From: Euphorbia lathyris
Lineage: Eukaryota > Streptophyta > Magnoliopsida > Malpighiales > Euphorbiaceae
DNA length: 64,000 nt
Assembly: GCF_963576675.1 (NCBI RefSeq)
Contig: NC_088914.1
Span: 79,544,441 to 79,608,440, forward strand
Direction of reading: 5' to 3'
The notes below the pieces were generated by a model. That model saw only the letters and a program-made list of their open reading frames with translations, had not been told where the DNA came from and made no database searches. The position numbers were made by a program, and so were the translations under genes. Position 1 is the stretch's first letter; every line of letters starts with the position of its first letter. Of the stretch, positions 26,461 through 49,572 are shown in pieces.

Positions 26461-28818
26461 GGCACGGATCCCCATGCAAAAAAGGAGAAAAAAAGAGGAG
26501 AAAGGGAGGAGGAATCCTTAGAGAGCTTGTCACACTAGATATTTTTCTAGAGAGAGGAAGTTGATTTTTTTAGGAAAAAACATTTTTTTTCCTAAAACTT
26601 GAAAATCTCTAAATTTCCTAAGTTCAATTTTTACTAAATTTTTTATAAAAAACGGGAGCTCGTGGTTCGTGGAATCAATCGGCTTCAACTGTCAGATACC
26701 GAATTCAAGGTATTATCCGAGGACTAGACTCTTTATTTTATTTAATTTATTCTCTTCTTCTATTTTTATGCTATAGTTTTTATTCATTTAGTCATTTATT
26801 TATTTTGTCACATTTTATTTAATTAGCGTATTTATTTAATTTTCGTTTCGTGTTAAATAAAATTCGGTTTTGTTTTAAAATAAAAAACCTCGTTTTGATG
26901 TCCCAATACGAACCGTGATCCGATAAAAGGTAGTTCGGGTATCGAAAATGTTGTAATTACAAGTTTTTAATTTAAAAGGAATTTCCAAATAATGTTTTGA
27001 AATAAAAAACGTCGTTTAGGAATTTCCGTTTTCGACTATGATCCATCTTTGGTAGTTCGGAAACCCAAAACGATTGAATTAGATTTAATTTAAAGCTTTT
27101 GAATAAATCTGGAAACATTTAGGAGTACTGCTGTAATTTACCTATTCTGTCACTAAATGCTGTTTACCGACGGACTTTCCGTCTGTAAATCTGCCAAAAA
27201 TGTAAAAAATGCCATTTCAGTCCCTTTTTCTTAACTTTTAAACTTTTAATCCCTAGTACATATATATAAATATGTAATATATGTTTTTCAAATTATTTTA
27301 GAACTCTAGCATATATAATCATTCTAGAATATTTGTATATTATTATTTATTCCATTTTACAATATAAGTATAAGTATATATATGTATTCCTTTTTATTAA
27401 TTTGGGTTATGTTTTAAATGTTAGTTATTTGGTATTTTGAGAAATAATTAATATATATCAGCATATGGTATTTTTGGTATTTAAAACTATAGTAGTTATG
27501 TATATGTATAGTTTTTGGAACATTTGGGTTGTTTTAGTGATTATTGAATAAAATTATTTTTGGATAAGAATTATTTTCTTAGTTATAGGATTTACTTATT
27601 ATTTTCACATTTTCAAAGTATAGATATATTGTACCTATTATTTTTATATATACATATAGCTTCTTTTGTATTAACTCTTATTTTATATTCTATTTTTGAT
27701 TTAAATGTATATACGCATGTACAAATTATTTTCTTTACCCTTTGAGCCCATTCTTGGGTCCATATTTCAAATGGGCTTTATTTAAGTGTAAATATTAGTT
27801 AAAATAAGTTTATTATTGTAATTATAACAATTAGAGAGTCCATTAAATAAGTGGGGGAAATAAATCACAAAAAAATAGTTTTCAATTTAATTATTTAAAC
27901 TAAAAGGTTTTTTTTAGAGATTCTTAATGTAAATAAATAGTGCTTTCTTGACATTTCAAATCGTTTCTTAAAACACCACGTTTTAAAACCTTAATCCGTT
28001 CCAAAGGCGGATTAAAGGATCATTGTAATTAAAATCGTTTTCTTTGCAAATAATAGTTTTTTTGGAATCATTTTCTTAAAGGATTTGTACAAAATGAAAT
28101 TGACTTGTATGTTTAACCACGTTTTCTTATTAAAAGGTTCTTTATCTCAAACGTTTTCAAATACTCGAGTCGTTCCAACGGCGATTCGGGTAAGCTTCAT
28201 CAAACGAGGTTTTAAAATGCTCCTAAATCGTTCCAACGGCAATCAAGGTGCGAACCATGTAAATAAAACTCGTTTTGGGGAAATAAGTTAGTGTAGAATA
28301 AACACACAACATAACATTTAAATACGGTTGTAAATAAATCATTTCTTTCTTCCCTCTCTATGTATGTATAAACATAAATGGGTGATTCTTTACTGAGGTG
28401 GCTTTTCAATATCATATGCTCAAAATGGTTTCTAAAAAGAGAAAGAAAAGGGTTTCAAATGAATTTTAAACTTAAAGAAGTATACGATTAGTCCGTTATC
28501 GCCTAACATGCTGAGTAGGAGGCCGGTGGTTCATAACCGGGCGATGTCCGGGTGCCTAGTAGCCTTTCTCCGAAAAGGAGCTAGCCTTCTCGGCTCGTAC
28601 CTAAGTTTCCCGAACCCACACCGGTCTCCCGCAAGGGATCGGTGTTCATTTTCCCATTCGTGGGTGGCGACTCTTTCATATCTCCGAGCTCCGGTCCTGC
28701 CGAGCAGCTTGATTCCACGATTGGTTGCTTTCGGCGCCAATCACCGCTTACGTCGCCATGAGGTTGTCCACCCCCCGGTCCGCCCGGGAGATTAGGCCGT
28801 GGCACCTCGTCTAACAAG

Positions 28819-28836
28819 TGGCGACTCTGCTGGGGA
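28819..28836 (+). other. Primer-binding site, tRNA-Arg type
   Basis: TGGCGACTCTGCTGGGGA starts 2 bp after the 5' LTR and resembles the complement of plant tRNA-Arg 3' ends, as in Ogre/Tat elements. The same site occurs inverted at 61155-61172. Confidence 0.85.
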
Positions 28837-30871
28837 AGCGAGAAATTTGATTCCGAAAGGCGTGTATTAAGCCCTTAACGGGGACGGATCGTTTTACTTC
28901 TTTTCGTATGCATTCATATGCATTATTGCAAACCCTTTGGGTAGTTTCCGCGAAACCTCTAGCGAGAGTCCATTCGTCGCTCGAAAGAGGCTAGCGTAAG
29001 TTCCCCCTTACAGTAAGGCGCCAGAGGGTCCCCATCCATTCGTTAGGGGCGAATCTGTGCGGTCCTGTGAGGTCCCGCGGTCAGTCGTGTCAGCATATAG
29101 TAGCCTTAGAAGTTTCCATAGGATTACCCGTTACTATTTTTGATGTGATAAATGAATCAGTTCGTGTTTTCAAACCGCCATGATACGTATCTAATCCTAA
29201 AGTATGTAAAGAAAATGGGACGATGTGTTAATATATACTTATGAATCGACATACTAATTACCCTAAAAAACATCGAAACGATTTGAACTAAAAATGACTT
29301 AGTCATCTCATGTGAATGAACATGTGCGACCCGCCTTGTCCCTTTCGGTGTCCCGATGAAGGCACGTGTTCAGGAAATGTGTTATGACGTAAGCACATAT
29401 TAGTATGAATCGGTTTGGTATTAAGGATAATTACATCTCGATACAAAAGACTATATTAACAGTAGCCGTTATTCACATTCTTTAAATAAATTGGGATAAA
29501 ACGAGATCAAGACGAAACGAAAACGAAGAACATTTCTGTCCTGAACGACCCTGTCATAACGTGAAAAGTTTCGCACAAGTAGCCCGTCCCTTCCAAATGA
29601 AAGACGAGCTTTTACGTTATGCCTCGTGTCGTTCTTAAGAGAAATGGATGTGTCCGTACAGATGACTAAGAAAATAAAGAAGAGAAAAATGAACTAAATG
29701 ACCAAAATCATTCCGAATCTACGATATATATCAATACCGAGAGTAGTTAAAGAAAATAAACCAATGTCGTTGAGTACGTGCCTCGAACGAGTGTATACCC
29801 CGTTTAAAATCACAAAGCCGAATCAAGCCAAACCATATAATTGCGCCATATGGACGAGACTGCGGGTTTTGACTAACGACTCGATCATTTCGACCGTTAC
29901 CAAAACTGCAAGAAATATGGCCCGATGTACGTGTTTGCTTAATTCGTGCCTAAAGGAAAGAGAACGGTGATGTCCTCGCTTTGAATAAACATGCGATTCA
30001 ACGAAACGTTGATTTTCTATAACCACACTAAGATGATATATCCCGTAGGATTGGGAAGAACAACGAACTGTTGCTAGCCGAAAGGTTACCGTGCGCTCAA
30101 AATAAGACTCGCCGTCTTTTCATGTAGCTAAAATGAGCAAACGGATCCTCGATGCTAAGAACAAACGCGTTACGCGATGAGTCCGTTCCCTAAAATAAAA
30201 TCCAAAAGTGATTCCATCACTAAATGAACACATGGTTATGTCTCTCGATAGATCCAAAAGATCCCGTTGTAATCCAAAAATCGAGACACAAACCCGCGCG
30301 AACAAAAGGGAACGAGTCATTGACGATAACGAACGATCGGACTAGAAGAATAACTCGTACCCCGTCTAAAAACTGAGATGCGCTCAAAGGGAGTCAAAAC
30401 CCGAACTAATGCGTCTCACGAAAGGACGAAAGACGAGTTATTCTGAAAGGACAATCCAACTTAGTCGATTTCTTAGTCACTGAACATTGATACGTCAAAA
30501 CGAACTGTATTGTCTGATGGATGATTTACTTTCCCGCAATAATCGACGGCATCACGCGTCCCCCGGACCGCAATGTGAGCCCCAAACCAAAATCCTAGGA
30601 AAGAGACCTGGACCAACGAGTGTGTGGAGGAATAAGGGTGGAAGAGAGATGTTGTGATACGTGTAAATAGAACTAACGTTTGTTCTTCTTATCTTATAAT
30701 TATAAATAAATAAACGCACACACCACGAATCATGCATATAAAAATCATGCATACATACTAATGGATATCGTTCGCACAGACGTCATCATTAAGCGGTTGT
30801 AGTTTCGCGAGAGTGATCGGCTTGTCAGATAGTTTGATCAACTACGAGTAGACAGTTCAGAATCAGTAGTT
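28837..30871 (+). other. Tat element leader, no gene seen
   Basis: Two kilobases between PBS and gag without a long open frame of typical coding character. Short ORFs at 29698-29970, 30120-30320 and 30552-30752 show no domain. Long leaders are usual in the Tat lineage. An in-frame stop at 30830 bounds the gag frame on the left. Confidence 0.8.
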
Positions 30872-32341
30872 GTGGCTTCTGAATCATCTTCGTCTGGGTA
30901 TACTCAGTCCTCCGTCAGTATGTCTGCGACCGACGAGAAAGTGGCTGAATTAGAAAACTCTGTGAACAATATCAATGGTCAGCTGGCCGCAATCTTGGCC
31001 CAGCTAGCTGAGTTAGCACTGAAGGACAACAAGAGTGGTAGTAAGCGTGCTGAGAATGAGGTGAACGATGGCCCTCGCTTTGGGAATGAGGAGGATTATC
31101 AGGATTATATCCGAAAACAGCTGGAAAAGGAGAAAGCTAAGGAAGAGGAGTGGAAGCAACACATCACACAGGAAGTGCAGGACTTGCGTGGAGGAAGTTC
31201 CGAAAATCAGGACTTCTATAACTTGAAGAATTGTTTGTCGGCAACAGCTTTGCCTCTGAAATTTCGTCTCCCCGACATGAAAAAGTTCGATGGAACTGGA
31301 GATCCCACCGCTCACATGAATCAGTATGTTACTGTGATGAAGCACACGATCCTGACTGAGGATCAAGTCCTGGGGCTGTTTAACACCTATCTAGAGGGGG
31401 CTGCCCTCACATGGTTTCATGCATTGCCGATGGTAACAAAGAGGGATTGGAAGGAATTAGCAAAGTCGTTCATCGCTCAGTATAGCTTTAACACCATGCT
31501 GGAGGTCACTTTAAAAGAATTAGAGAGCACTAAGCAGCAGGCTGGGGAATCCTTTTCCGATTTTGTGAAAAGATGGAGGGCTAAGGCCGCAGTGATGAAA
31601 CAAAAGCCGCTCGAGCAGGATCAGATCCGAATGGTGGTTGGCAACACGTTGCCGTATATCAAGAATGAGTTGCGGTATATGCCATTTACTGATTTCAATC
31701 AGATGTATAGTTGTGCCTTGACTGTTGAAAGGGATGGGGAGCCAAAGAAAGCTTATACCAAGTGGACGAAGTCTGGGTATAGTGCCGGAGGGCCTAGTGC
31801 GAGTATGGAATCCGCAGCAGTGAAAGTGGTTGATCTTAATGCTATTGAAAAGAGGCGGTTCGCCAAGTTCGATCAGACCTACGCAAAAGTTTTTGAGCAT
31901 CTGCAGAAAAAGGGATTGTTGAAAGCCCTTACCCCGTATAACAAAGCTCAACCTACTCCGCAGATACAGGCTAGAGGGTATTGTGAATTCCATAGCAGTT
32001 ATGGGCATACAATTGAGAATTGCGAGAGGTTGAAACACGAAATCCAAGATTTAATCAAAGAGAAGAAGATAGCTGATCCTTCGTCAGCGAACCCTTCCAT
32101 TAGGCGTAATCCATTGCCTAATCATAGGGTGAGTACGATCGGAGTTGGTTTGACAGAAACTGTAGTGATGGAATCCTTCGAGGAAAATGTAGAGGAGTTG
32201 TTGGACTCCGATGAAAAGAGCAATGTAGGAAATGGTCTGTATGTGTCCTTCCTTGGTGAAGAACAAGAGGATGAACCGATGGGGGAAGGCTCGGATGGTG
32301 GGGCTCCGTATGATGAGGATAGTGCTGAAGAGACCGGATAA
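30872..32341 (+). CDS. Tat element Gag, first ORF
   Basis: Frame open from 30833; the first ATG is at 30920 (residue 17 when counted from the GTG at 30872), which I take as the likely start. An N-terminal heptad-like segment (VAELENSVNNINGQLAAILAQ) and a charged helix come first. A capsid-type Gag domain covers residues 138-285 (counted from 30872): N-terminal module FDGTGDPTAHM to FIAQY, then a C-terminal module with ESFSDFVKRWRAK. A CHHC motif, CEFHSSYGHTIENC, is at 371-384. The C-terminus is acidic. It ends at a TAA at 32339; the next ORF continues in the same frame 18 bases later, so this is either a decayed stop or a natural Gag/Pol border. Gag would build the particle and package RNA. 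Confidence 0.85.
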   Translation: MASESSSSGYTQSSVSMSATDEKVAELENSVNNINGQLAAILAQLAELALKDNKSGSKRAENEVNDGPRFGNEEDYQDYIRKQLEKEKAKEEEWKQHITQEVQDLRGGSSENQDFYNLKNCLSATALPLKFRLPDMKKFDGTGDPTAHMNQYVTVMKHTILTEDQVLGLFNTYLEGAALTWFHALPMVTKRDWKELAKSFIAQYSFNTMLEVTLKELESTKQQAGESFSDFVKRWRAKAAVMKQKPLEQDQIRMVVGNTLPYIKNELRYMPFTDFNQMYSCALTVERDGEPKKAYTKWTKSGYSAGGPSASMESAAVKVVDLNAIEKRRFAKFDQTYAKVFEHLQKKGLLKALTPYNKAQPTPQIQARGYCEFHSSYGHTIENCERLKHEIQDLIKEKKIADPSSANPSIRRNPLPNHRVSTIGVGLTETVVMESFEENVEELLDSDEKSNVGNGLYVSFLGEEQEDEPMGEGSDGGAPYDEDSAEETG

Positions 32342-35300
32342 GGGTCGTCTCGGACTATTGTGCCAGATTTGAGTTTGTTTAGTGGAGGAAGAGATCCCGA
32401 GGTGCACTTGCGTGAATATATGCACAACATGTTTATTGAATCCTTCGGAGTAGATGAGATTGCTCAGCGGTTTCATCATTCGCTGGTAGGCGAGCCTTTG
32501 GAATGGTTCCACTCATTACCCGACTCTTGCAAGCATGATTGGGATCAATTATCAGATTTATTCTTAGAAAAGTACCAAAGAGCCGAGGACAGGGCCGCAG
32601 AGCGCTTCGCAATGCAGATTGGACCTATCAAGCGTCCGCTACGGAGGGTTAGCAAGTATAATGGCAATAAGGATCCTATGGAACACCTTCATTTTTACTT
32701 GTCGGCTATGGCACCCTTGGGTTTTAAAGAAGAAGAGATCACTAGCTTGTTTTGTAATTCGTTGATGGGTGAACCGTTAATGTGGTACATGTCGTTGTCG
32801 ATGTATGTTAAGACCGATTGGGCGGCAATGACGAAAAGATTTATCAAGGAGTATACAGTATGGATGCTGGCAGAGCAAACCCCTGACTCCCCGTCTTACC
32901 AAACACCTGATGCGGTGTTAGCAATGCCTAGGTATGGTGGATACCAGGATCCTGTGGAGCATGCGAGGATATTTCGTAATCATATGTATGACGCCGGATT
33001 TCCGCAGTGTGAGTTGCATGAACACTTTCCGGAAACCTTGATGGGTGAAGCCTTATTGTGGCATCAGGGTCTATCAGAGGAGGAGATGGGTCATTGGATA
33101 CCGCTCCGAAGTGCCTTTATGGCGAGATATGAAATGTACATTCCATGGACGGGATCCCTGGATGATCTGGACAGGATTAGGCAATTCCCCGAGGAACATT
33201 TTGTGGATTATGCTAGAAGGTGGAGGCACCGTTATGAGCAGTGTAATGAGACAATGAGCGATAAGGTGCAGCTTATGTGCATACAACGAGGTGCTATTCC
33301 GTTGGCTGCAAGGAGGATGAGCCGGGTGTCCCTCCGTGACTATGATGAGTTGATAGGTTGGGCTTTGTACGGATCGGCGGATCCCTTTTTCCTGAATTCG
33401 AGTGTTCCTCACGTCATGGATTTAATGGTCGTGGAAATTTGGGAGAGTTCCTCGGACGAGGAGGATGCCAATCGAAGGGTTCCTATTAACATTTGGGACG
33501 AATCGGATGATGAGCCGGAAATTGCGGTAATGACGAGATCAGGTCGTGTGGCCGAGGGAAAGGCACCAATGGTAGAGACTGAGATTGGAGAAGGGTCGGC
33601 TCCTAAGCCTGATGACCAAGTTCTTGAGCAGTTGAAGAAGACGCAAGCTAAGTCTACGGTCTGGGAAGTTTTATGCCATTCCAAGTACCATCGTGAGAAC
33701 CTGATGAAGGAGTTGCAGAATTTGGTTATTTCCACCGATACTGAGCCAGCAGCGCTAGTAGGGGCAATTATGGCTCGAAAGAAGACTGAGATCACATTTA
33801 CCGATGAGGATCTCCCAGAAGAGGGGAAGGCTCATAATAAGCCATTGTATATCCGAGCGGAAATTAACGGGAAGAAGACTAGCTGTGTGATGGTCGATGA
33901 TGGATCGGCCATTAATGTTTGTCCGTTGAAACTCTTGTCGAAGTTGGGAGTGGAAAGAGGAGACTTGACGGCCTCTGAAATAGTGATTAGAGCATATGAC
34001 GACAGCCGTAGGCACATTGAAGGAGTCTTCAAGGCCAAGTTGAAAGTGGGGCCGCACGAGGAAGAAACTGAGTTCACGGTGTTGGATATCCCGGTAACTT
34101 TTGCTGTGCTGTTGGGACGCCCTTGGTTCCATAAGTTAGGAGGTGTGCCCTCCACGCTCCACCAAATGATTAAGTTCCCCTTCAGGGAGGAGATAGTAAC
34201 AATTAGAGCTGAGAAATTGAGCTCGGTGGCAGCACTGGGAATTGAGCCTCAACTTTTCTCCGGATTCCAAGTCTCCGGGATTTATGAGTCGAGCATGACC
34301 ACCGATGTGGTGAAAATGATGAAGGGAGGTTTCATCCCGGGAATGGGTTTAGGAGCATACCATCAGGGGCTGCCAGAGTTTCCGGACTTTAAGAGTCAGA
34401 AAACCCGGAGGGGTTTGGGATATGAGCGGGGGAGTCCGTCCAATGCGAGTGCTGAAGGAAAAGTAGGCTTGAGGAAGTATTTTGTGAGCGAGGGGCATGG
34501 GAAGGCATATTCAGGAACCCCCGAGGCATGGACTAGCACGGAAGGGAAGATTCTGCCAGGGTTCGAAATCTTCAATGATGTTGCCGACTGGGGCAAAGGA
34601 AAGGCGAGCTGCTTTGTCGAGGAGATCATGATGCTGGATTTAAATGCCGAGGAGCAGGTCATCACCATCGAAGCGACTATGGGAGCGGGAGATGAGCCTA
34701 GTACCTCCAAAATTCACGAAAAACCCGAGAACCCTGATGATGAAAATTGTATTACTGCTTTGTTTGAATCAGATGATGTAATCACCCATGCTATCAATGA
34801 AATGAATTCTGATTTTGCTTACTTGCTTGATGTTGATCATGATCATTCCAAGCATTCTCATTCATATAACATGCCTACATTTGAAATCAATACGATAGAA
34901 ATGTCAACTTTCAATCTTGGTACGGATGAAAATCCTAAACTTATACAAATTGCTCAAGCATTAACTATTGAAGAGAGAAAAGAATTTGAGAGAATAATTA
35001 AAAAATACGAAATTGTATTCGCTTGGACATACGAAGACATGCCTGGAATTGATCAATCTATCGTAACTCACCGCATTCCAACTTATCCCGAAGTAAAGCC
35101 CGTAAAGCAGAAGCTCCGGCGTATGAGACCCGAATGGGCAGATAAGATCAGGGAGGAGGTGAAGAAGCAGTTAGAAGCAGGATTCATCGAAGTGATCGAC
35201 TATCCCCTTTGGGTCGCAAATGTGGTACCAATTGCGAAGAAGGACGGCAAAGTGAGGATGTGCGTCGATTACAGAGATCTTAACAAGGCATGCCCCAAGG

Positions 35301-35554
35301 ATGAGTTCGCATTACCTCATATCGACGTATTGATCGACAGTGCAGCGTCAAGTGTATTACACACGAATGTGGATGGTTTTATGGGCTACATGCAAGTTCA
35401 GATGGCCGAAAAGCACAAAGCAAAAACCTCGTTCACAACTGAGTGGGGGACATACTGTTACAGAGTAATGCCGTTTGGGTTGAAAAATGTCGGGGCAACT
35501 TATCAGAGAATGGCCACAGCACTGTTCCATGATATGATACACAAGGAGGTATAA
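32342..35554 (+). CDS. Tat polyprotein: three Gag-like modules, protease, G-patch-like motif, RT (N-terminal half)
   Basis: A 1064-codon frame continues the gag frame. Residues counted from 32360: three Gag N-terminal-type modules at 6-72, 99-165 and 191-257, each with G-x-x-D-P near the start and W-x3-L/F near the end; only the third is followed by a C-terminal-type module (to about 336). Aspartic protease at 505-606 (VDDGSAINVCP, later LLGRPWFHKLG). A glycine-rich G-patch-like motif at 655-690 (GGFIPGMGLGAYHQGL). RT from about 905 (CVDYRDLNKACPKDEFALP, MPFGLKNVGATYQ). The stop at 35552 falls just before the VYVDD box and the frame goes on unbroken, so it looks like one substitution. Several conserved RT positions near 1005-1012 also look altered. 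Confidence 0.85.
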   Translation, partial: GSSRTIVPDLSLFSGGRDPEVHLREYMHNMFIESFGVDEIAQRFHHSLVGEPLEWFHSLPDSCKHDWDQLSDLFLEKYQRAEDRAAERFAMQIGPIKRPLRRVSKYNGNKDPMEHLHFYLSAMAPLGFKEEEITSLFCNSLMGEPLMWYMSLSMYVKTDWAAMTKRFIKEYTVWMLAEQTPDSPSYQTPDAVLAMPRYGGYQDPVEHARIFRNHMYDAGFPQCELHEHFPETLMGEALLWHQGLSEEEMGHWIPLRSAFMARYEMYIPWTGSLDDLDRIRQFPEEHFVDYARRWRHRYEQCNETMSDKVQLMCIQRGAIPLAARRMSRVSLRDYDELIGWALYGSADPFFLNSSVPHVMDLMVVEIWESSSDEEDANRRVPINIWDESDDEPEIAVMTRSGRVAEGKAPMVETEIGEGSAPKPDDQVLEQLKKTQAKSTVWEVLCHSKYHRENLMKELQNLVISTDTEPAALVGAIMARKKTEITFTDEDLPEEGKAHNKPLYIRAEINGKKTSCVMVDDGSAINVCPLKLLSKLGVERGDLTASEIVIRAYDDSRRHIEGVFKAKLKVGPHEEETEFTVLDIPVTFAVLLGRPWFHKLGGVPSTLHQMIKFPFREEIVTIRAEKLSSVAALGIEPQLFSGFQVSGIYESSMTTDVVKMMKGGFIPGMGLGAYHQGLPEFPDFKSQKTRRGLGYERGSPSNASAEGKVGLRKYFVSEGHGKAYSGTPEAWTSTEGKILPGFEIFNDVADWGKGKASCFVEEIMMLDLNAEEQVITIEATMGAGDEPSTSKIHEKPENPDDENCITALFESDDVITHAINEMNSDFAYLLDVDHDHSKHSHSYNMPTFEINTIEMSTFNLGTDENPKLIQIAQALTIEERKEFERIIKKYEIVFAWTYEDMPGIDQSIVTHRIPTYPEVKPVKQKLRRMRPEWADKIREEVKKQLEAGFIEVIDYPLWVANVVPIAKKDGKVRMCVDYRDLNKACPKDEFALPHIDVLIDSAASSVLHTNVDGFMGYMQVQMAEKHKAKTSFTTEWGTYCYRVMPFGLKNVGATYQRMATALFHDMIHKEV

Positions 35555-38155
35555 GTCTATGTGGACGATATAATGGTCAAATCAGAGACAAGAGAAGGGC
35601 ATTTTGCCGCGCTCGAGAAGTTTTTGGCCCGAATTGCAGAATTCAAGCTAAGGTTAAACCCGAAGAAGTGCTTTTTCGGCGTTTCGTCGGGGAAAATCTT
35701 AGGCTATGTAATCGGAAATAAGGGAATCGAGGTGGATCCTGATAAAGTGAAGGCTATACAGGAGATGCCGGTGCCGAAAAATGAGAAAGAAGTGAGAGGG
35801 TTTCTGGGGCAGGTTCAATATATCAGTCGGTTCATAGCGAGACTCACCGCAATCTGCGAGCCAATCTTTAAGTTGTTAAGGAAAGACCAACCCACCATCT
35901 GGAATGATAAGTGTCAACAAGCTTTGGAGAGCGTCCGGAACTATTTGTCTAATCCGCCAGTGCTGAGACCGCCTAAACTAGGGAAGTCGCTTCTCCTCTA
36001 TGTAGCGATCGAGGAGCGATCTATTGGGGCAATGTTGGCTCAAGAGGGAGACACCGGTGTGGAGCACGCGGTGTATTATTTGAGTAAGAAGTTCCTGGAG
36101 TACGAGCTCAAGTACAACATGATCGAAAAGACATGTGTGGCAGTGGTATGGTTGACAAAGAAACTGCGGCACTATTTCCAATCGTATAAAGTGATCATTA
36201 TTTCTCGGATGGACCCCGTGAAGTATCTATACCGAACTCCATCCTTGACGGGGAAGTTAGCCAGATGGTTGTTACTTTTGTCCGAGTTTGACATTGAATA
36301 TGTGACGAAGAAGGTTATCAAAGGGAGGGCCGTGGCAGAATTTCTGGCCAACCAGCCCCTGAACGCAGAGGAAGAAGAGATAAGTTATGATTTCCCCGAT
36401 GAGCACTTGAACGCAATCGAAGTTATACCGTGGAAAATGTTCTTCGACGGAGCAGTTAATTCGAATGGAGCCGGAGTAGGAGTACTACTTACCTCACCGG
36501 AAGGAGAAAGGATCCCGATGGCCAAGAAGTTATCCTTCCCTCTCACCAATAATATGGCTGAGTATGAAGTGTGCATTTATGGCTTAGAGTCATTAGCGGC
36601 ACTGGGAGCGTCATATGTCGAAATCTGGGGGGACTCAAAGTTGATCATTGAACAGGCACAAGGAAACTGGGAGGTAAGAGAAGAAAGACTACGTCCATAT
36701 CTAGATCAGCTAGAAGGGTTGGCACAAAGATTCAAGGAATGTCGTTTCTATCATATTCCTCGAGCACAGAACCAGGCGGCGGATGCCTTGGCTACTTTGG
36801 TGTCAGTTTGGGACAACCCCCGGAACCTTGCTTCGAAGCCGTTGGTATTGAGAAGATCTCACAAACCATGTTACGAGGATGTAATGCTGTTAGGGACAGA
36901 TGAAAAACCATGGTATTTCGATATCATGAACTTCATGAAAGATGGGACATATCCGGCAGAGTCAGAACCTAGGGATCAAGCTGTGATTAGAAGGCTACCT
37001 CGTCAGTTCGTCATCCACAACGACTTGCTTTACAAAAGGCACGTTGATGGATTACAACTCAGATGCTTGGATGCGGGAGAAGCCCGCGAGGCAATGGAAT
37101 CAGTACATTCGGAAATTTGTGGAGCCCATATGGGAGGAGCAGTACTAGCTAAGAAAATTATCAGACAAGGCTTCTATTGGCTCACCATGGAAAGAGATTG
37201 TAACGTGTATGCAAAGAAATGTCACGATTTTCAAATCCACGGCGATTGCAGTCATCTTCCGGCCATGGAACTACATGTGCTAGCACCTATTTGGCCATTC
37301 GCTGCCTGGGGCATTGACATCATCGGCGAAGTAAGGCCTAATGCTTCAAATGGACATAAGTTTATTGCAGTCGCCATCGATTATTTCACCAAATGGGTAG
37401 AAGCAGAGTCGTTTAGCAAACTGGGATCCAAGCAGATGAGAAAGTTCATTGAAAAACACTTGATCACCAGGTTCGGAGTGCCTCATCACATGATCACGGA
37501 TAACGGAGTCCAGTTTCAGGGGGAAGTAAGGAATCTTTTCCGAGAATATGGCATTGAACATCACAGGTCTTCTCTGTACCGTCCACAGGCTAATGGGGCA
37601 GTAGAAGCAGCTAATAAGAACCTTAAAAGGATTCTCGTAAAGACGGTGGAATCACATCGGAACTGGCATGAGCACCTCCCACTCGCGTTGTGGGCTTATC
37701 GCACGACAATCAGAACCTCGACTGGGGCAACGCCATTCTCCTTGGTATACGGAACAGAAGCAGTCCTGCCGATTGAGATCGAAAAGCGATCGTTGAGAAT
37801 CGCAGTGGAAGCAGAAATTCCCGAAACGGAATGGGTGAAGAGGCGATATGAGCAGTTGGCTTTAGTTGATGAGAAAAGGATGGAAGCCCTTTACCATGTA
37901 CAGTTATATCAAAGAAGGATGGCTCGGGCTTTCAATAAAAAAGTCAAGACCAGCCCTATCAAAGAAGGAGATTTGGTGCTGAAACAGATCCGTGTGACGC
38001 ACACCGACCCGAGGGGGAAGTTCAGGCCTAACTGGGAAGGACCATTCGTCGTGAAGAAGATACTAAGCAAAGGAGCGGTGAAGTTAACCACAATGGACGG
38101 CATGGAATTCTCCGAACCTACCAACCTGGATAGGCTTAAGAAATACTTTTCGTAA
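35555..38155 (+). CDS. Tat polyprotein: RT C-terminus, two RNases H, integrase
   Basis: Same frame, after the TAA at 35552. Residues counted from 35561: RT active site VDD at the very start; degenerate gypsy RNase H at about 140-265 that has lost its usual first acidic motif. Archaeal-type RNase H at 290-415 with all four acids visible: D296 (FFDGAVN), E335 (MAEYEV), D358 (WGDSKL), D408 (AADALA). Integrase zinc region at 516-557, in which the last Cys is Phe (KKCHDFQ); DDE core D585 (WGIDIIG), D647 (ITDNG), E682 (AVEAANK); C-terminal domain to residue 864. The archaeal-type RNase H is the hallmark of Tat elements. Product would replicate and integrate the element; broken in this copy by the upstream stop. 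Confidence 0.88.
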   Translation, partial: VYVDDIMVKSETREGHFAALEKFLARIAEFKLRLNPKKCFFGVSSGKILGYVIGNKGIEVDPDKVKAIQEMPVPKNEKEVRGFLGQVQYISRFIARLTAICEPIFKLLRKDQPTIWNDKCQQALESVRNYLSNPPVLRPPKLGKSLLLYVAIEERSIGAMLAQEGDTGVEHAVYYLSKKFLEYELKYNMIEKTCVAVVWLTKKLRHYFQSYKVIIISRMDPVKYLYRTPSLTGKLARWLLLLSEFDIEYVTKKVIKGRAVAEFLANQPLNAEEEEISYDFPDEHLNAIEVIPWKMFFDGAVNSNGAGVGVLLTSPEGERIPMAKKLSFPLTNNMAEYEVCIYGLESLAALGASYVEIWGDSKLIIEQAQGNWEVREERLRPYLDQLEGLAQRFKECRFYHIPRAQNQAADALATLVSVWDNPRNLASKPLVLRRSHKPCYEDVMLLGTDEKPWYFDIMNFMKDGTYPAESEPRDQAVIRRLPRQFVIHNDLLYKRHVDGLQLRCLDAGEAREAMESVHSEICGAHMGGAVLAKKIIRQGFYWLTMERDCNVYAKKCHDFQIHGDCSHLPAMELHVLAPIWPFAAWGIDIIGEVRPNASNGHKFIAVAIDYFTKWVEAESFSKLGSKQMRKFIEKHLITRFGVPHHMITDNGVQFQGEVRNLFREYGIEHHRSSLYRPQANGAVEAANKNLKRILVKTVESHRNWHEHLPLALWAYRTTIRTSTGATPFSLVYGTEAVLPIEIEKRSLRIAVEAEIPETEWVKRRYEQLALVDEKRMEALYHVQLYQRRMARAFNKKVKTSPIKEGDLVLKQIRVTHTDPRGKFRPNWEGPFVVKKILSKGAVKLTTMDGMEFSEPTNLDRLKKYFS

Positions 38156-38647: not shown

Positions 38648-41600
38648 CTAATACGGAGGAAAGTCCCAATAGTTCTCAAAATCTCTCAGGTGTGATGCCC
38701 GCTCCGCAGATAGTGCCTCCTCGGCAGCACGCGCTCTCTCATCAGAAACTCGCGCTCTCTCATCAGAAACTCGTGCTCTCTCATCAGCAGCTCGTGCTCT
38801 CTCCTCTGCAGCAGGGCGTCTGATCGACTCATCACGCGCCCTCTCCTCGACGGCAAGGCGACCCTCAGTCTCCCGTCGCATCATCCCCGACCAGTGGTCG
38901 TTCCTCTCTTGATACACATGACCAACTCGGGCATCAGCTTCCCGCACTAGCTCGCTCTGTCTCCGCTCGTGGGCATGCAGATCACTCTACAGAAAAAGAA
39001 AAAAAGAACAGATAAAAGGCAGCATAGGTAAAAACATAAATCATACATACATGCATACATTTCACTACACTAAAGTACAGTAATGATACATACCAGGTGA
39101 TCGGTGCAGCGCAAGCTGAGGCGGTCTCGGAGATAACCAGACAGCCCCACGTAATCCGTACAAGTCTCTCTCGTGGTCAGAGAAGCGTCCGAGGGATCAA
39201 ACGGGACCCTCGAGGAGAAGATAGGAGGGGCCGCCTCAAATCCCGCGTAAGGTGCCCCGAACTCGTCATAGCAGGTCGTAGCATAATCTTTCCCATAGTC
39301 TGGTATAGGCACGCCTAGGGAAGACCTCTCCGGTCGGGCAGCGCTGGAGGACTCGCCAATATAGTAGGGCTGCTCGCACACTGGCGTCTGAGCCCGAGTG
39401 CCGTCGAAGAAATCAGATAAGTGGGCACTCCTCCAGGATCCCTCCTGCAAACAAAACACACCATAAAACCTCTGAACATCTCATGAATAAAAGGGGTAAA
39501 ATAAAAAGGGAATGGAATCACTTACCGGGACCTCCTCCTGACCAAAGACTGCCGCGACAGCCTCCCTCGAAAATACATCCGCCACCGGATCCACCTCCAT
39601 CGCCGCCGCCGGGGCATCCCTCGCGCTCAGCAAAGTAGACAAGTAAGGCTCACGGCCCCCGGCGTGAATCCACACTGCTCTACCAACATACCAACGGGTC
39701 AGGTCCCGATGAATGACCGATAGTGGCAGGGTCCGCACCACGAACATAGAGACGGGGATCTCGCCCGGCGTCCAGTGAGCGTCCCTAACTCCGGTGATGC
39801 CTCGATCCCCTAAATACCACGCCCGCACGCAGGGGCCGGTGAGCACACACTGCTGCTCCTGGATCATCGATACATATGTATAACCAGGGCCGAAGTCGAG
39901 GTCGTCCCATCGGAACTTAATCTAAAAAATGCACAAAGAGAAAGTCAGAAAGATTCAAACAAAAAACCAAGCATGATTAGGCAAAATCTACCTGTGTGAG
40001 GGTCAGCGAGTCGATCCGATCCAGAAGCCGCGACACTGTCCGACTCCTCTCGGCGCTCAAGTCAAAATCCCTCCACTGAGTCATGAAAGGCGGCCTCAGT
40101 ACTCTCGGTCGAGATCGAGACCGGTTGGGAAGGATGTGTCTCTCATACGCCCACACCTGCGGTAAAAACGAGGACTAGGAATGTGAAAAATGCGAAGAAG
40201 ATAGGACGGATAAGTCAAGAAGACGTCACGTACCAGCAAAGCAAAGATATAACCACCGAAGTCCTTGCGCTTCCGGCAAGTCAGATCCAAAAACTTGTAA
40301 AGAAAGGCTAAGCCTGCCCCCGCCCAATCGTAGGAAGCCGATGCATCCAAATCGCTGAGCGCCTGAATGAGGCCCGCATGTACCTTCCCGCCATTCGTGT
40401 GGAAAATCGTCTCACTCAGAGCATATACCAAGAAGCTACGAACCACCAAGTCGGTATCGTCAGTCTCGCAAAAATCTCGTCTACTCAAGAGGCTCGCGGT
40501 GGAAACAAACTTCGCCAGAGTAGACTTGGCGCATAGGCGAACTCCCGGTCCAATCAAGGCAGCGAGCCTAGCAGGGTCGACCCGCGGTCGCATCATACCA
40601 AAATGAAAAGGGACGGGAGCGTTGCTCCCTCGCAATCCGGTCAATAGCGAAAAATCTCGAGGCGAGATAGTCATCTCCCCAAAGGAAAGGTGGAAGGTGT
40701 GGGTCGAATCAACCCACCGCTCACACAAGGCCCGTAGGCCAAAAGGATCGCATACCCCGTTGGTGCGGGGCAGCGCTGCAATAAAGGGCTCGAAGCCCAA
40801 CTCACGCACGCGGGCTCTCGCCGCGGCTCCTAGCCTATCATACCACGAATGAACCTCGGCGGTGGTCCCCGAAATCTCAATGAACTAAAAAGGAACAAGA
40901 TAAGAAAATTTAAATACAGCTCCTAAAGCATACAATTGATAAGAACGCGTTAAGACTAGGTATTCTTTCATTTTCTAACCTAGAGACATCCGGTCAGTTA
41001 GGACCAATTTTCTGTAAAAATCTCTCCGGTAGGGTCATTCACGTAAGGTTTAGTCAATTCTTTGATCCACCCTCGTCTGCGGTGACGAGGAGCATAGATT
41101 AGACTTTACTATTCACGTGCATTAGCTAAGTCTTTACTATTCACGTTTTTACTATTCACGTGCATTAGCTAAGTTTTTACTATTCACGTTTTTACTATTC
41201 ACGTGCACTATTCACGTTTTTACTATCCACGTGCACTATTCACGTGCACTATTCACGTTTCTTACTATTCACGTGCATTAGCTAAGTCTTTACTATTCAC
41301 GTTTTTACTACTCATTTGCACTATTCACGTTTTCACTATTCATGTGCACTATTCACGTCGTTTTTACTGTTAGCATGCATAAATTCGTAGTGTCACTATT
41401 CACATGCATATAGCGCGCATTCTTACAAAAATAAACAGGTGTTACTTGTAAATAAAGGAATTCACGTTTTCTAGCTAAAGTCCTCTAAGGCAGTCTAAGG
41501 GTTAGCATGCAAATCATGTTCGTGTAGGAATGCTAAAGCCTAGAGTTCGAATCGAATAAAAGTGAGAAATTACTTACCTCGTTGCAGCGTGTCCTGCTCA

Positions 41601-41694
41601 AATGCGTCGTAGGGTCGTGAAAGGTATCCACTCTATCCACGTTTACGTAAACCTCGTCCATGCCTCTAGTGCCATCCCATTCATCTAAATCCAT
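38648..41694 (-). CDS. Plant mobile domain (MAIN/MAIL-like) protein, antisense to the Tat element, six exons
   Basis: Exons on the minus strand: 41694-41578, 40884-40234, 40156-39992, 39921-39526, 39444-39094 and 38986-38648; stop TAG at 38648. Every intron is GT-AG with a good donor (GTAAGT or GTATGT type in most) and lies in phase 0; the joined frame is 672 codons without a stop. Exon 2 carries the PMD signature: VRELGFEPFIA, LCERWVDSTHTFHLSFGEMT, LLTGLRG. Exon 3 continues it with VWAYERHILPNR. Exon 4 has DDLDFGPGYTYVSM and a basic WYVGRAVWIH segment; exon 5 is not recognised; exon 6 is a charged helix with a repeated ERARVSD/ERARAAD unit. PMD proteins (MAIN, MAIL1) act in the nucleus in gene expression and transposon silencing; related PMDs are carried by some plant transposons. 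What this one does is unknown. A TATA box lies 80 bp upstream of the ATG. Splice sites are read by eye, without transcripts. Confidence 0.88.
40885..41577 (-). promoter_or_regulatory. Intron 1 of the antisense PMD gene with a G-box-rich repeat
   Basis: Donor GTAAGT at 41577, acceptor TTTTTAG at 40885. Between about 41105 and 41400 the words TACTATTCACGT, CACGTGCA and CATTAGCTAAG repeat irregularly; at least six copies of CACGTG (for example 41114-41119 and 41157-41162) give a dense set of G-box cores. CACGTG is a known bHLH/bZIP binding core in plants; a role here is inference. Confidence 0.75.
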
Positions 41695-41772
41695 CCCGGG
41701 AATAATCCAAAATCAAAGTCTAGAGAGAGAAAGAAGAAAGAAAAGGTGTGGGGTTGAAATGAAACCCCACCA

Positions 41773-41783
41773 CCTTATATAGG
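41773..41783 (-). promoter_or_regulatory. TATA box and pyrimidine-rich leader of the antisense gene
   Basis: The minus strand reads CCTATATAAGG, about 80 bp before the ATG at 41694. The predicted leader (about 41750-41695) has a run of C and T (CTTTTCTTTCTTCTTTCTCT), the Y-patch style of plant core promoters. Confidence 0.75.
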
Positions 41784-42132
41784 AAAAGGGAATGGCATTC
41801 CCGTAAATAGTGAAAAAACGTACGATTTGACATAAAGGTAAAAAGTAAATAATTAATTACTAGGTGCACAGACCTCCGATTTGCAGTCCGTTTCAGCCTG
41901 CATTTCTCTCAGACAGCAACCAATACTGTCAAGATATGAACTCTAGACAACAGCCAATTTTTACAGAACAGTGACACCAGTCAAAGTACAGACGACAGTC
42001 AACAGAAAAACAATCGTTAGTCGATATCATTCCAGACCAAAACACGTTCCCATTAAACCTCCGAGACACTAGCTCCAGACAATGGTGTTTTAAAAGAATC
42101 CAGAATCGTTAGAAAGAACTTTTCTGCTCTTT
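41784..42132. other. Spacer upstream of the antisense gene, nothing recognised
   Basis: Between the antisense TATA box and the minisatellite. It contains short CAGACAGCAACCA-like words but no ORF and no clear repeat. It may hold upstream elements of the antisense promoter. Confidence 0.6.
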
Positions 42133-42580
42133 AGCCATCTTACCTACGGTTCACGACCGAGGTAGATTTTTAGCCATCTTACCTACGGTTCACGACCGAG
42201 GTAGCTTTTTAGCCATCTTACCTACGGTTCACGACCGAGGTAGCTTTTTAGCCATCTTACCTACGGTTCACGACCGAGGTAGCTTTTTAGCCATCTTACC
42301 TACGGTTCACGACCGAAGTAGCTTTTTAGCCATCTTACCTACGGTTCACGACCGAGGTAGCTTTTTAGCCATCTTACCTACGGTTCACGACCGAGGTAGC
42401 TTTTTAGCCATCTTACCTACGGTTCACGACCGAGGTAGCTTTTTAGCCATCTTACCTACGGTTCACGACCGAGGTAGCTTTTTAGCCATCTTACCTACGG
42501 TTCACGACCGAGGTAGCTTTTTAGCCATCTTACCTACGGTTCACGACCGAGGTAGATTTTTAGCCATCTTACCTACGGTT
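42133..42580. repeat. 39-bp minisatellite, 11.5 copies
   Basis: Unit AGCCATCTTACCTACGGTTC... of exactly 39 bp, starts at 42133, 42172 and so on to 42562. Copies are nearly identical; variants are GGTAGATTTT in the first and eleventh units and GAAGTAGC in one middle unit. Tandem repeats between pol and 3' LTR are common in the Tat lineage. The last copy breaks into a T-run next to the truncated LTR. Confidence 0.97.
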
Positions 42581-42585
42581 TTTTT

Positions 42586-43574
42586 TCATTAGAGAGTCCA
42601 TTAAATAAGTGGGGGAAATAAATCATAAAAAAATAGTTTTCAATTTAATTATTTAAACTAAAAGGTTTTTTTTAGAGATTCTTAATGTAAATAAATAGTG
42701 TTTTCTTGACATTTCAAATCGTTTCTTAAAACACCACGTTTTAAAACCTTAATCCGTTCCAAAGGCGGATTAAAGGATCATTGTAATTAAAATCGTTTTC
42801 TTTGCAAATAATAGTTTTTTTGGAATCATTTTCTTAAAGGATTTGTACAAAATGAAATTGACTTGTATGTTTAACCACGTTTTCTTATTAAAAGGTTCTT
42901 TATCTCAAACGTTTTCAAATACTCGAGTCGTTCCAACGGCGATTCGGGTAAGCTTCATCAAACGAGGTTTTAAAACGCTCCTAAATCGTTCCAACGGCAA
43001 TCAAGGTGCGAACCATGTAAATAAAACTCGTTTTGGGGAAATAAGTTAGTGTAGAATAAACACACAACATAACATTTAAATACGGTTGTAAATAAATCAT
43101 TTCTTTCTTCCCTCTCTGTGTATGTATAAACATAAATGGGTGATTTTTTACTGAGGTGGCTTTTCAATATCATATGCTCAAAATGGTTTCTAAAAAGAGA
43201 AAGAAAAGGGTTTCAAATGAATTTTAAACTTAAAGAAGTATACGATTAGTCCGTTATCGCCTAACATGCTGAGTAGGAGGCCGGTGGTTCATAACCGGGC
43301 GATGTCCGGGTGCCTAGTAGCCTTTCTCCGAAAAGGAGCTAGCCTTCTCGGCTCGTACCTAAGTTTCCCGAACCCACACCGGTCTCCCGCAAGGGATCAG
43401 TGTTCATTTTCCCATTCGTGGGTGGCGACTCTTCCATATCTTCGAGCTCCGGTCCTGCCGAGCAGCTTGATTCCACGATTGGTTGCTTTCGGCGCCAATC
43501 ACCGCTTACGTCGCCATGAGGTTGTCCACCCCCCGGTCCGCCCGGGAGATTAGGCCGCGGTACCTCGTCTAACA
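42586..43574 (+). repeat. Tat element 3' LTR, lacking its first 2 kb
   Basis: Matches 27828-28816 with about ten differences and ends CTCGTCTAACA, but begins at TTAGAGAGTCC with no TG start. The equivalents of 25806-27827 (U3, palindrome array, TATA) and the polypurine tract are missing. The tandem array abuts it. Confidence 0.93.
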
Positions 43575-43579
43575 CCCAT

Positions 43580-43992
43580 GTTTTATTTCGTGTTTGGGAA
43601 CTCGAAGAAGAAAAACCAACAAAAGGGGAGAAATTCGTTTTACTACTCCTACATCAGGTCAGTTCACGATTTTGCGGATTCCCGGAGATTGAACCGTCGG
43701 ATCGTCGCGATTGTTGGACAGGAGCTTCTAGACATATTCTTCCATGTTTCCACCGAAGGGATTGTCATTCGGAGGTCTGGAATGTCTGTTTCGGATAGGG
43801 GCAGATTGGTAGACAGTTTCTATCTCTTTTGAAGTTGTGGGCACTTCGTTTGCAACGGTAGATAGAACTTCTAAAAGCTATTTCTTCTTATCCTTCTTTA
43901 TATGAAATAACGGTTAACGGATCTTGTGGTTAAATGGAAATAGGTTAAAAAATTTATATTTCCGCTGTTATACCTTAGCCTAATTTCCAACA
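43580..43992 (+). repeat. Copia 5' LTR, right part
   Basis: Continues the copia LTR after the Tat insertion (equivalent to 51245-51657) and ends TTTCCAACA, 1 bp before the PBS. An open frame of 84 codons (43578-43832, also 51243-51497) is shared with the other LTR and is not evidence of a gene. Confidence 0.93.
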
Positions 43993-43993
43993 G

Positions 43994-44006
43994 TGGTATC
44001 AGAGCC
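43994..44006 (+). other. Primer-binding site, tRNA-iMet type
   Basis: TGGTATCAGAGCC directly after the copia 5' LTR. Confidence 0.93.
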
Positions 44007-44318
44007 ATCGTTAAATCCGTTATTTCATATATGAAAATTTAGAAGTTTTTCAATAGGATTGAATAAATATTTATAGTTAGGATTAATTAACAAATTGTTT
44101 TGATTAATTAATTCTAAAGATAAATAAATTTTAATTAATTGTTAATTAAAACAGATTATGTGTATGTTCCTAATTATTTTGGTTGATAATCATTATAACA
44201 AAATCTATTAGTTTTATAGTTAGATTGATAAAATCAGTTTTATTAATTCTAAAGATAAAACAGAAATCTATAGTAGTTTTTCCTATTTTCTGAAAATCGT
44301 TTTAAAACCGTTTTAGAA

Positions 44319-44378
<60 letters not shown>

Positions 44379-45640
44379 AAATCGTTTTTATATTTAAATA
44401 TATATGTTTCAGAAATAGATAGTTTTCTGTTTTGATTATCGAATGAAGATTTGTTTAAAAGTTTGTTTTACCAATTTGTAAATCAAAATGTTAAATGAAT
44501 TAAAATCAAAATAATTGAGACGTGCATAATTAAAGTTTTGTATAGTTATATTAATCTAAAAGATACGAAACTATTAGAAGTAAAATTGGATAAAAGTTAA
44601 TTTGATATGTTAATGTGATTAACATAAATATTACATAAGATAGTTATGTAATCAACCAATTAAATTTATTTAATTGAGTCTATGCATGTTTGGAGTTATG
44701 GACATATTTGGACCCTCTTTAGTCTTTGGTATTTTTGAAATAGGGCCTGCGAGTCCTGCTTTTCTACTGTCTATTGTAATTTCTCCTCTCATCTGATTCC
44801 CTTCAATTCAATTGAAGTTTTCTTTAGTAGTATAGAAATTAATATGTAATTTCAAGGCGTCATGGAGAAGATGGAGGACCTAAAAAGAAATATGTAATAG
44901 TTAGTATTTCCTTAGGTTTGCCCTTTTATTCCGTCTCTAGCTCGACGGAATAATTTAGATGATATGTCCATAATGCCAATGAATGTGAATGTATGTGTCT
45001 GATGTATGCTAAAGCAAATCAAGACTAAGTTAGATTATGAGACCTAAAATAAAATCCCTCATTAAAAAGTTAAGTAAATAAACAAGTTATTAAAATCGGT
45101 TGCCCCTCCCTAATATTGTAATCAGCCGGCAGTGCTGAGGGCTTTTGGGTTGTTGAGTAAACTCAAGCTCAGGGTCCTTTCGGTAACACCTGAATTATCG
45201 AAAATCATTTTTCATGAATATGGGGTAATACTTAAATTAGATTATGATAATTGGATGAGTAAACTCATGTTATCATAAACTAATGGGCAAGACGGTTGGG
45301 ATTAATATGAATAGCATATTAGTTACTAATGTGGTTAGTAACCCAATAACCTAGGAATCACATTAAAGATGTGATTGATTACATGAATCTACCTAATGAA
45401 TGAGACTAGCTTGTTGAGTAAACTCAAGGCGAAATCTCAGGAGTTAGGATCCTAGCTCACTAAAGGATTTGTGAAATTCTTCGAATTAATATGGAGGGCT
45501 ATTAATTTGGCAAAATAGTGGGAGCTATCTAAAATAAACTAAAAGGCCTATAATTTTAGATTGATATAATTTAAGCAAATGAATGACATACGTTTACTCT
45601 TTCTCACTCTCAGGTTTAAATTAAACCCACTCTTATAATC
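44007..45640 (+). other. Copia leader with (AT)n microsatellite
   Basis: Untranslated leader of 1.6 kb before gag; (AT)27 at 44322-44375. Homologous to the minus-strand fragment at 1-1441. No gene seen. Confidence 0.85.
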
Positions 45641-47260
45641 ATGACTAACACCGATCTGCGAAACATTATTACCGATAACAAATTGAATGGTTCAAACTTC
45701 ACCGACTGGTATCGCAACCTCAAAATTGTTTTGAAGTTCGAGAGGAAATGGTATGTACTTGATACACCGATACCCCCTTACCCAACGAATGATGCTCCCT
45801 ACCAAGAATTTTATGCTTACTTGAAGCATAAATCTGATGATGATCAAACTGGAGACATCATACTTGCATCCCTGACACCGGAAGTTAAAAGGCAACTACA
45901 TTCAGATATGGATGCCTATTCCATGGTCAAGCACCTAAAAGAGTTATTTGTGAATGAAACTCGGTGCGAGCACTTCGAAATAACCAAGGAGTTATATAAA
46001 AGCAAGATGCAGGTGGGCACATCTGTAATGGCACATTGTGCAAAGATGATCAGCCTTATCACCAAGTTTTCTAGTATTGGAGATGCGATGGACCGTGAAC
46101 TAAGTGAAAACTTACTTCTTCAGTCCCTCCTCGAGAGTTACTCACAGTCCATCATGAACTACCAAATGAGTGGCTTGCAAACCTCTCTTGTAGAGCTTGC
46201 GCATATGCTCGAGTCAGTCGAGCCCATTATAAAAGAAAACGAGGAGATACTGGCCCTTGCTATTGAAGGATCGAGAAAAAGGAAAGGGATCTCTCCCAAT
46301 CCAAACCATCTTGATAAAGGCAAGGGGGCTGAGCTCACCGAAACGAAGGGAAAGGAATTAAAGAGGCCCAAAGTAAAGTGCTACTATTATGGTGACTTGG
46401 GGCATTGGAAGAGGAACTGCAAGGAGTACCTAGCCTCCCTCAAGAAGGGAAATGGCGGTGCTTCAACATCTGGTATGTTTTATATTAAAATAAATACAGT
46501 TTCACTGTCTGAATCTTGGGTATTAGATACCGGATGTGGATCTCATATTTGTACAAATATGCAGGAGCTAAATCAGACTAGAGAACTAAAGAAAGAAAGC
46601 ATAAGCTTGCGAGTAGGAAATGGAGCAAGAGTTGCCGCCCTCGCAATTGGAGATTATGTTTTAAATTTGCCCTCTAGTCTTGTAATAGAATTAAGGAATT
46701 GTTTATACGTTCCTCAAATGTCTCGCAACATTATTTCTATTAGCCGTCTTGTTGACGACAGTTTTCATATTTCAATAAAAGACAAGAGTTGCAATTTTTA
46801 TAAAGATTCGATCTTTTATTTTTTAGGAATTTCACAAAATGGGATTTATGTGTTAGATAACAAAATTTCTGCTTTTGCAATTGATACCAAAAGACATAAG
46901 CTAGATAATTCAACTTACTTGTGGCATTGTCGTTTAGGCCACATAAACAAGAGACGCATGCTAAAGCTACGTTCAGATGGGCTTATAGATCCAATCGATC
47001 CCGAATCATTGGAAACATGCGAATCATGTTTAAAAGGTAAAATGACAAAGACACCCTTTAGCAATAAAGGTGAGCGTGTATCAGACACTCTAGGACTCAT
47101 TCATTCAGATGTATGTGGTCCTATGTCAGTCCAAGCAAGAGGAGGATTCAGATTCTTCATAAGCTTCATAGATGACCATACCCGATATGGTTACATCTAC
47201 TTGATGAAGCACAAGTCAGAAGCTTTTGAGAAATTCAAATGCTTCAAGAATGAAGTATAA
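45641..47260 (+). pseudogene. Copia Gag, protease and first part of integrase
   Basis: ATG at 45641. Gag has LNGSNFTDWYRNLKIVLKF at residues 15-33; the single zinc knuckle (247-260, CYYYGDLGHWKRNC) has Tyr for its second Cys. Protease at about 285-370 with the triad D296-T-G (LDTGCGSH). Pre-integrase zinc region H429, H434, C460, C463; integrase starts with D490 (IHSDVCGP) and IDDHTRYG. A TAA at 47258 falls between D490 and the next catalytic Asp, and the frame continues unchanged, so a single substitution probably killed it. Confidence 0.92.
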
Positions 47261-49498: not shown

Positions 49499-49556
49499 AG
49501 AATACATGATCGTCATTTAACTTCTACTGGGATAAGTTTTAGAAACAATTGGCTTT

Positions 49557-49572
49557 AGTCCAAGTGGGAGTA
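49557..49572 (+). other. Copia polypurine tract
   Basis: Purine-rich AAGTGGGAGTA immediately before the 3' LTR start TGTTGGGG. Confidence 0.9.

Follow-up and report, generated by a model that had tools for sequence, protein, structure and literature searches.

The 64,000-nt stretch of Euphorbia lathyris DNA analysed here (contig NC_088914.1, positions 79,544,441 to 79,608,440; hereafter the window) contains a Tat/Ogre-type long terminal repeat (LTR) retrotransposon that carries a six-exon gene on its minus strand. From its sequence, it is near certain that this gene encodes a plant mobile domain (PMD) protein. It lies antisense between the end of pol and the 3' LTR, fills most of that stretch and points toward pol, and is a well-preserved further example of an already known class, the element-borne PMD genes.

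The gene model runs from 41694 to 38648 and comprises six exons and five introns. All five introns are GT-AG introns in phase 0, each exon has a length divisible by three, and the joined coding sequence (CDS) of 2019 nt holds 672 open codons (672 aa) followed by a stop; at the base composition of the CDS, and with codons taken as independent, the probability of so long an open frame by chance is ~8e-12. A TATA-box-like sequence, CTATATAAGG (41773..41782, minus strand), is the putative promoter, its TATA at 41781 standing 87 nt before the ATG, and an in-frame TGA lies seven codons 5' of that ATG. Exon 1 (117 nt, 41578..41694) carries the ATG and is matched across junction 1 by two E. lathyris proteins, P0001 and P0004. 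Exon 2 (651 nt, 40234..40884) is followed by exon 3 (165 nt, 39992..40156), exon 4 (396 nt, 39526..39921, placed by the gene model and by homologue junctions), exon 5 (351 nt, 39094..39444) and exon 6 (339 nt including the stop, 38648..38986), which encodes an Arg/Glu/Ala-rich tail. The introns measure 693, 77, 70, 81 and 107 nt in order. The first of them (40885..41577) holds tandem repeats of the ACTATTCACGT type at 41105-41358, with periods of 13, 28, 43 and 113, and exon 6 contains in-frame 21-bp repeats at 38717-38812, where the length of the tail differs among Euphorbia copies. A pyrimidine-rich stretch ending in TAG is present in the 5' leader (41720-41746, minus strand). Since P0001 and P0004 join differing upstream sequences to the same LIWIILG before the start Met, this stretch may contain an acceptor usable by transcripts coming from outside.

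The joined protein matches the Pfam PMD profile PF10536 over residues 90-315 (E 4.7e-27; 95.5 bits against a gathering cut-off of 34.9). Exon 2, which encodes the PMD core ALCERWVDSTHTFHLSFGEMT, matches the profile when taken alone (9e-21, 74.9 bits). From an alignment made here, and not from a published definition, we derived the core form R(W/C)xxxTHTFHLxxGEM; it is present as RWVDSTHTFHLSFGEM in the window protein and has counterparts in Rhodiola P0011 (RCRSETHTFHLHHGEM) and Paspalum P0013 (RWRSETHTFHLTVGEM). PMD is the sole domain of the joined protein at E up to 1, and Transposase_28 (PF04195) was not found in it. The C-terminal tail comprises 112 residues, among them 22 Arg, 18 Glu and 18 Ala. 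A search of solved structures returned one irrelevant weak match (E 4.5).

Eleven close relatives were found, all of them E. lathyris proteins; those from the homologue search are 63-87% identical to the window PMD protein. The searches scored those candidates sharing most words (7995 in the homologue search and 7992 in the profile search), so genic PMDs may be missed. P0001 (704 aa) aligns with 83% identity over 100% of the window protein, and scores 89.0 bits against PF10536. Its alignment is unbroken at all five predicted junctions, where it shares 11 to 16 of the 16 flanking residues with the window protein; a 4-residue gap in its alignment lies four residues before junction 3. Across 11 homologues examined, gap-free crossing is seen in two at junction 1, seven at junction 2, ten at junction 3, ten at junction 4 and six at junction 5, the remaining proteins at each junction not spanning the place (P0004 at junction 2 excepted). 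Two of the ten at junction 3, P0002 and P0009, are irregular. Further support for the exon boundaries comes from irregular models that deviate at these same boundaries: P0008 joins exon 1 straight to exon 3, P0004 has a 15-residue insert precisely at junction 2, and in P0002 exon 3 is followed by VDFA, which is what the opening 12 nt (four codons) of the window's intron 3 encode. Some of the E. lathyris relatives are listed under names with isoform numbers, and gene models of that kind usually rest on RNA reads. The six-exon minus-strand structure, with its TATA box, ATG, phase-0 introns, 672 codons and PMD core in exon 2, had been proposed from the DNA alone, together with a check of the joined frame against PF10536; the open joined frame, the gap-free crossings of P0001 and the profile scores uphold this original prediction.

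The relatives are spread over at least five E. lathyris contigs, so the PMD gene family appears to be multi-copy and dispersed, as expected of a gene moving with an element. Three of the copies (P0004, P0008 and P0010) carry a fused gag domain and a fourth, P0009, Copia-type pol sequence; judging from these fusions, the four copies sit in transposon-rich surroundings. The gene is therefore likely a mobile multi-copy accessory gene rather than a one-off capture. The nearest partial Euphorbia relative, P0012, shows 92% identity over 302 residues. A profile search for distant PMDs returned 12 proteins, the new ones being one from Euphorbia and one from Paspalum; with 7992 candidates scored, absence elsewhere means little. 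Scans of viral contigs with exon 2 and with the protein alignment confirmed no relative.

The host element is bounded by two near-identical LTRs enclosing gag-pol: a 5' LTR with a shared block of 987 nt (27830..28816, plus strand), which does not start with TG, and a 3' LTR (42588..43574), 99.0% identical to it. A candidate primer binding site, TGGCGACTCTGCTGGGGA (28819..28836, plus strand), begins 2 nt past the 5' LTR and may be one for tRNA-Arg, the primer typical of the Ogre subclade. The gag open reading frame (ORF; 30833..32341, Retrotrans_gag 7.4e-08) contains a first capsid-like module and ends at an in-frame stop at 32339-32341. The same frame continues (32342..35554) through three further capsid-like modules, a protease-like stretch, a G-patch domain and the first part of the reverse transcriptase (RT), ending at an in-frame stop at 35552-35554 inside RT. 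A third section (35555..38155) encodes the rest of RT (RVT_1, 1-53), RNase H (RT_RNaseH, 144-245), a second RNase H (RVT_3, 297-414) and integrase (H2C2, 509-561; rve, 581-677). The sense gag-pol frame at 30833-38155 is thus interrupted twice (at 32339 and 35552) before its terminal stop, the second stop splitting the RVT_1 match across two ORFs, in agreement with the stops originally predicted for sense pol. The aspartyl protease match of the protease-like stretch falls under the cut-off, at 18.3 vs 24.3 bits. An array of a 39-bp tandem repeat (11.7 copies, 42126..42580) separates the antisense promoter region from the 3' LTR.

In angiosperms, the Tat clades Ogre and Retand are distinguished by an additional RNase H placed between the first one and integrase (PMC6317226). 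The presence of this domain here, the 99% identical LTRs and the position of the gene between pol and the 3' LTR bear out the view that the PMD gene is antisense inside a Tat/Ogre-like retrotransposon. Ogre proper is characterised by an intron-like region separating gag-pro from pol, and none was seen here; the frame is continuous from gag to RT apart from the two stops, with gag modules, protease-like stretch and RT start sharing the open frame 32342-35554. We therefore call the element Tat/Ogre-type and not Ogre proper. Among the 120 matches listed of 1086 in a pol search, the highest identity was to Mercurialis annua (61% over 92%), and no match was named Euphorbia. The LTR block starts ATTAGAG and ends in TAACA, and no matching target-site duplication was seen in the flanks examined. 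Given this, the lack of a TG start and a Copia LTR adjoining at 43575, the outer limits of the element are not fully settled.

The gag frame contains four paralogous capsid-like modules in tandem (31253-31732 and 32342-33331, plus strand). They are 23-38% identical pairwise with blastp E of 1e-8 to 1e-16, and none of 500 shuffles reached any of the six scores. Six pol relatives were scanned for gag at E up to 0.01; one had a single match and five had none. The G-patch domain (34316-34426, plus strand) lies ahead of RT and scores 22.5 bits against a cut-off of 22. It is also found, below the cut-off, in Coffea P0049 and Vitis P0016, and has been reported for plant Gypsy elements (PMC9289625).

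The two LTRs differ at 10 of 987 sites, all transitions and no transversion (Kimura two-parameter distance, K2P, 0.0102). Substitution rates of 7e-9 to 1.3e-8 per site per year place the insertion at ~0.4-0.7 million years ago. At this LTR divergence, only ~0.34-0.39 nonsense mutations are expected in the PMD CDS since insertion. Scaling from the two stops in 2440 gag-pol codons gives 0.55 stops expected in 672 codons, and zero stops would be seen 58% of the time (P(0)=0.58), so the openness of this copy says little about selection acting on it. The argument that an intact PMD beside a broken pol proves selection on this copy was considered and rejected on these figures, and the suggestion that selection kept the frame open while pol broke cannot be carried over to this copy.

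Constraint on the family is a separate matter. Substitutions separating the window protein from each of seven relatives are more conservative than random single-nucleotide missense change under four mutation models, the fraction of simulations reaching the observed mean being 0 to 0.045 over 28 runs (seven relatives by four models). The comparison used seven of the 11 relatives then at hand, four fused or distant ones being left out, and disregarded the 3 to 49 differences per relative that a single nucleotide change cannot explain. It weakly suggests family-level constraint on the PMD protein.

We propose that the antisense PMD gene, predicted to be spliced, is an accessory gene belonging to the element, and that its nuclear product would blunt host silencing of the MAIN/MAIL1 type. 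We favour this reading while granting it slightly less than an even chance, a judgement that concerns the mechanism and not the PMD identity. In the host, MAIN and MAIL1 bind PP7L and work with it in gene expression and in the silencing of transposons (PMC5418596, PMC7156037). PMDs encoded by transposable elements (TEs) have in general been proposed to be counter-silencing factors (PMC8616336), and the same has been suggested for the PMDs of Mutator-like elements (MULEs; PMC5418596). In maize Grande, the antisense gene is driven by a promoter of its own and its product is nuclear (PMC7264820). The PMD gene would likely be transcribed under a TATA-type promoter of its own, close to the 3' LTR. 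Its PMD part would then compete with or imitate host MAIN/MAIL1 in the element's favour, with the C-terminal Arg/Glu/Ala-rich tail serving in pairing with partners.

The antisense orientation may explain how a gene of this build is carried by a retrotransposon. In the genomic RNA, which is of the opposite strand, its introns would read CT-AC and hence stay unspliced, so that the multi-exon gene could pass each reverse-transcription cycle whole and without intron loss. A sense-oriented gene of such build would be expected to lose its introns, because it is spliced RNA that gets copied. From this we infer that intron keeping could be the reason why such genes are antisense. The fuller idea, that antisense placement is an intron-keeping device by which a nuclear counter-silencing factor, made from a spliced transcript under a promoter of its own, is carried through unlimited rounds of reverse transcription, is speculative and rather unlikely as a whole.

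Several observations weigh against the counter-silencing proposal. The PF10536 profile is covered at positions 21-242 of 347 only. The match ends at 242 in P0001 and P0004 as well and at 239 in P0007, and the best stretch in Rhodiola P0011 ends at 247, so that the last third of the profile appears to be diverged or absent in all of these proteins. The predicted structure of P0001, computed from an alignment of 10 sequences, has a mean predicted local distance difference test (pLDDT) score of 33.9; the model is too low in confidence for use and gives no fold evidence for any activity. The tail is drawn as a long helix in that model, where overall confidence is likewise below use. Not all relatives are whole: exon 6 is out of frame in P0006, and one or both ends are missing from P0002, P0003, P0004, P0005 and P0007. 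The conservative-substitution test is weak, since its seven comparisons all involve one sequence and lack independence, and its result applies to the family rather than to this copy. This copy may in fact be mute, to judge from the two gag-pol stops and from LTR differences that are transitions in 10 of 10 cases, which is what a methylated, silenced element would be expected to show.

The strongest competing explanation is that the PMD protein regulates the element itself, acting in the manner of retroviral Rev or HBZ on the element's own RNA, promoter or integration and not on the host MAIN/MAIL1 pathway. The TE-encoded PMD-A clades are separate from MAIN/MAIL1 (PMC5418596), as such a role would allow, whereas those plant PMD proteins whose effect is known act in host silencing and gene expression (PMC7156037). 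We regard this explanation as possible, at perhaps half the weight of the counter-silencing proposal.

Rather less probable is a role for the antisense transcript as RNA, in which it would pair with sense genomic RNA and feed small interfering RNA (siRNA) production, making the locus either a brake upon the element or a target for surveillance by the host. The two genes are convergent, the PMD stop at 38648 facing the gag-pol stop at 38153; 175 phased-siRNA loci have been reported at PMD genes in the tea plant (PMC10673657), and silencing through double-stranded RNA has been discussed for antisense ORFs (PMC7264820). A brake, however, needs no 672-codon frame, phase-0 introns or conserved protein, all of which P0001 keeps, and the substitutions lean conservative.

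It is improbable that the gene is an inert passenger without a present role, undecayed only by reason of the youth of this copy. The low number of nonsense mutations expected since insertion and the chance of an unbroken frame given above are in keeping with such a passenger, as are the several relatives that are cut short or out of frame. Against it stands P0001, which is full-length and collinear with all junctions kept. Its 107 differences from the window protein, at 0.049-0.061 stops per missense change, imply ~5 to 6.5 stops under neutrality over both lineages; none is seen, though annotated proteins are chosen for openness.

That this element recently captured a MAIN-type gene of the host, in line with the original prediction of a captured host-type PMD, is very improbable and was rejected as unproven: the multi-exon, host-like structure and the NCBI name of P0007 ('protein MAINTENANCE OF MERISTEMS-like', given by similarity) would fit it, but E. 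lathyris already has several divergent relatives, the only dicot match outside Euphorbia among the top word-sharing candidates scored, where genic PMDs were possibly missed, is Rhodiola P0011 at 28% identity, and PMDs are a widespread class in Ogre and other Gypsy elements (PMC6317226, PMC5418596).

A Copia element (43575-51657, plus strand) starts right at the end of the 3' LTR of the Tat/Ogre-type element. The 3' internal part of this Copia element (49573-51247) has a 98.9% identical copy at 24135-25808, and positions 1-1495 of the window show inverted similarity of 75-77% to 43938-45240, in its 5' part.

Plant Gypsy elements carry PMD genes related to those of the host silencing proteins MAIN and MAIL1, and the young, fully open, predicted-spliced copy described here, together with a collinear relative ~17% diverged, provides a concrete predicted cDNA. 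Euphorbia thereby offers a setting for testing the expression, splicing and host-pathway binding of a PMD gene and the selection on it. Only one of the six exons, exon 2, falls within a stop-to-stop ORF of at least 250 codons (262 aa), and surveys of single long ORFs may for this reason undercount such spliced PMD genes. Of particular interest is that antisense placement would let a multi-intron gene survive retrotransposition.

PMD (pfam10536) has been found as an extra gene in 57% of Ogre elements (Neumann et al. 2019, PMC6317226), and in one screen it ranked first by frequency among the atypical domains of plant Gypsy elements (PMC9289625). Two clades, PMD-A1 and PMD-A2, are encoded by Gypsy retrotransposons alone (Ikeda et al. 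2017, PMC5418596); that study left open the order of origin of Gypsy PMD genes and host MAIN/MAIL1. Antisense genes after pol have been described in Retand, Grande and RIRE2 (PMC11963269, PMC7264820), and a 2020 review called for a look at antisense and spliced transcripts (PMC7264820). In the available text of PMC11963269, the terms 'mobile domain', PMD and intron are absent, and no description of a six-exon antisense PMD gene with conserved phase-0 junctions was found in the literature searched, most subscription literature lying outside its scope.

The present gene resembles the PMD extra ORFs of Ogre in being carried as an extra gene by a Tat-type element in which RNase H is followed by a second RNase H and then by integrase. 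It differs in its six-exon model, only exon 2 of which lies in an ORF of the kind counted by the Ogre survey, which considered single ORFs of at least 250 codons (PMC6317226), and its element differs in having gag, the protease-like stretch and RT in one frame without the Ogre intron. It resembles PMD-A1 and PMD-A2 in being encoded by a Gypsy element, a likeness of gene context, and the study that defined those clades likewise read surrounding sequences with a spliced-gene finder, Fgenesh (PMC5418596). With the host PMD-C proteins MAIN and MAIL1 it shares a PMD domain, here above the Pfam cut-off; unlike theirs, the gene is borne by an element, and its kinship to them is judged by the domain rather than by a tree. 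Its closest parallels in arrangement are Grande (gene23), RIRE2 and Retand, in which an antisense gene also lies between pol and the 3' LTR (PMC7264820, PMC11963269). About half of recently active Retand elements have tandem repeats in the same region (PMC7264820, PMC11963269), as here, and the Grande gene has its own upstream promoter (PMC7264820), to which the putative TATA-box-like sequence may correspond. Where those antisense genes encode TRP28/Transposase_28 or proteins without known relatives (PMC7264820, PMC11963269), however, the gene in this E. lathyris element encodes a PMD.

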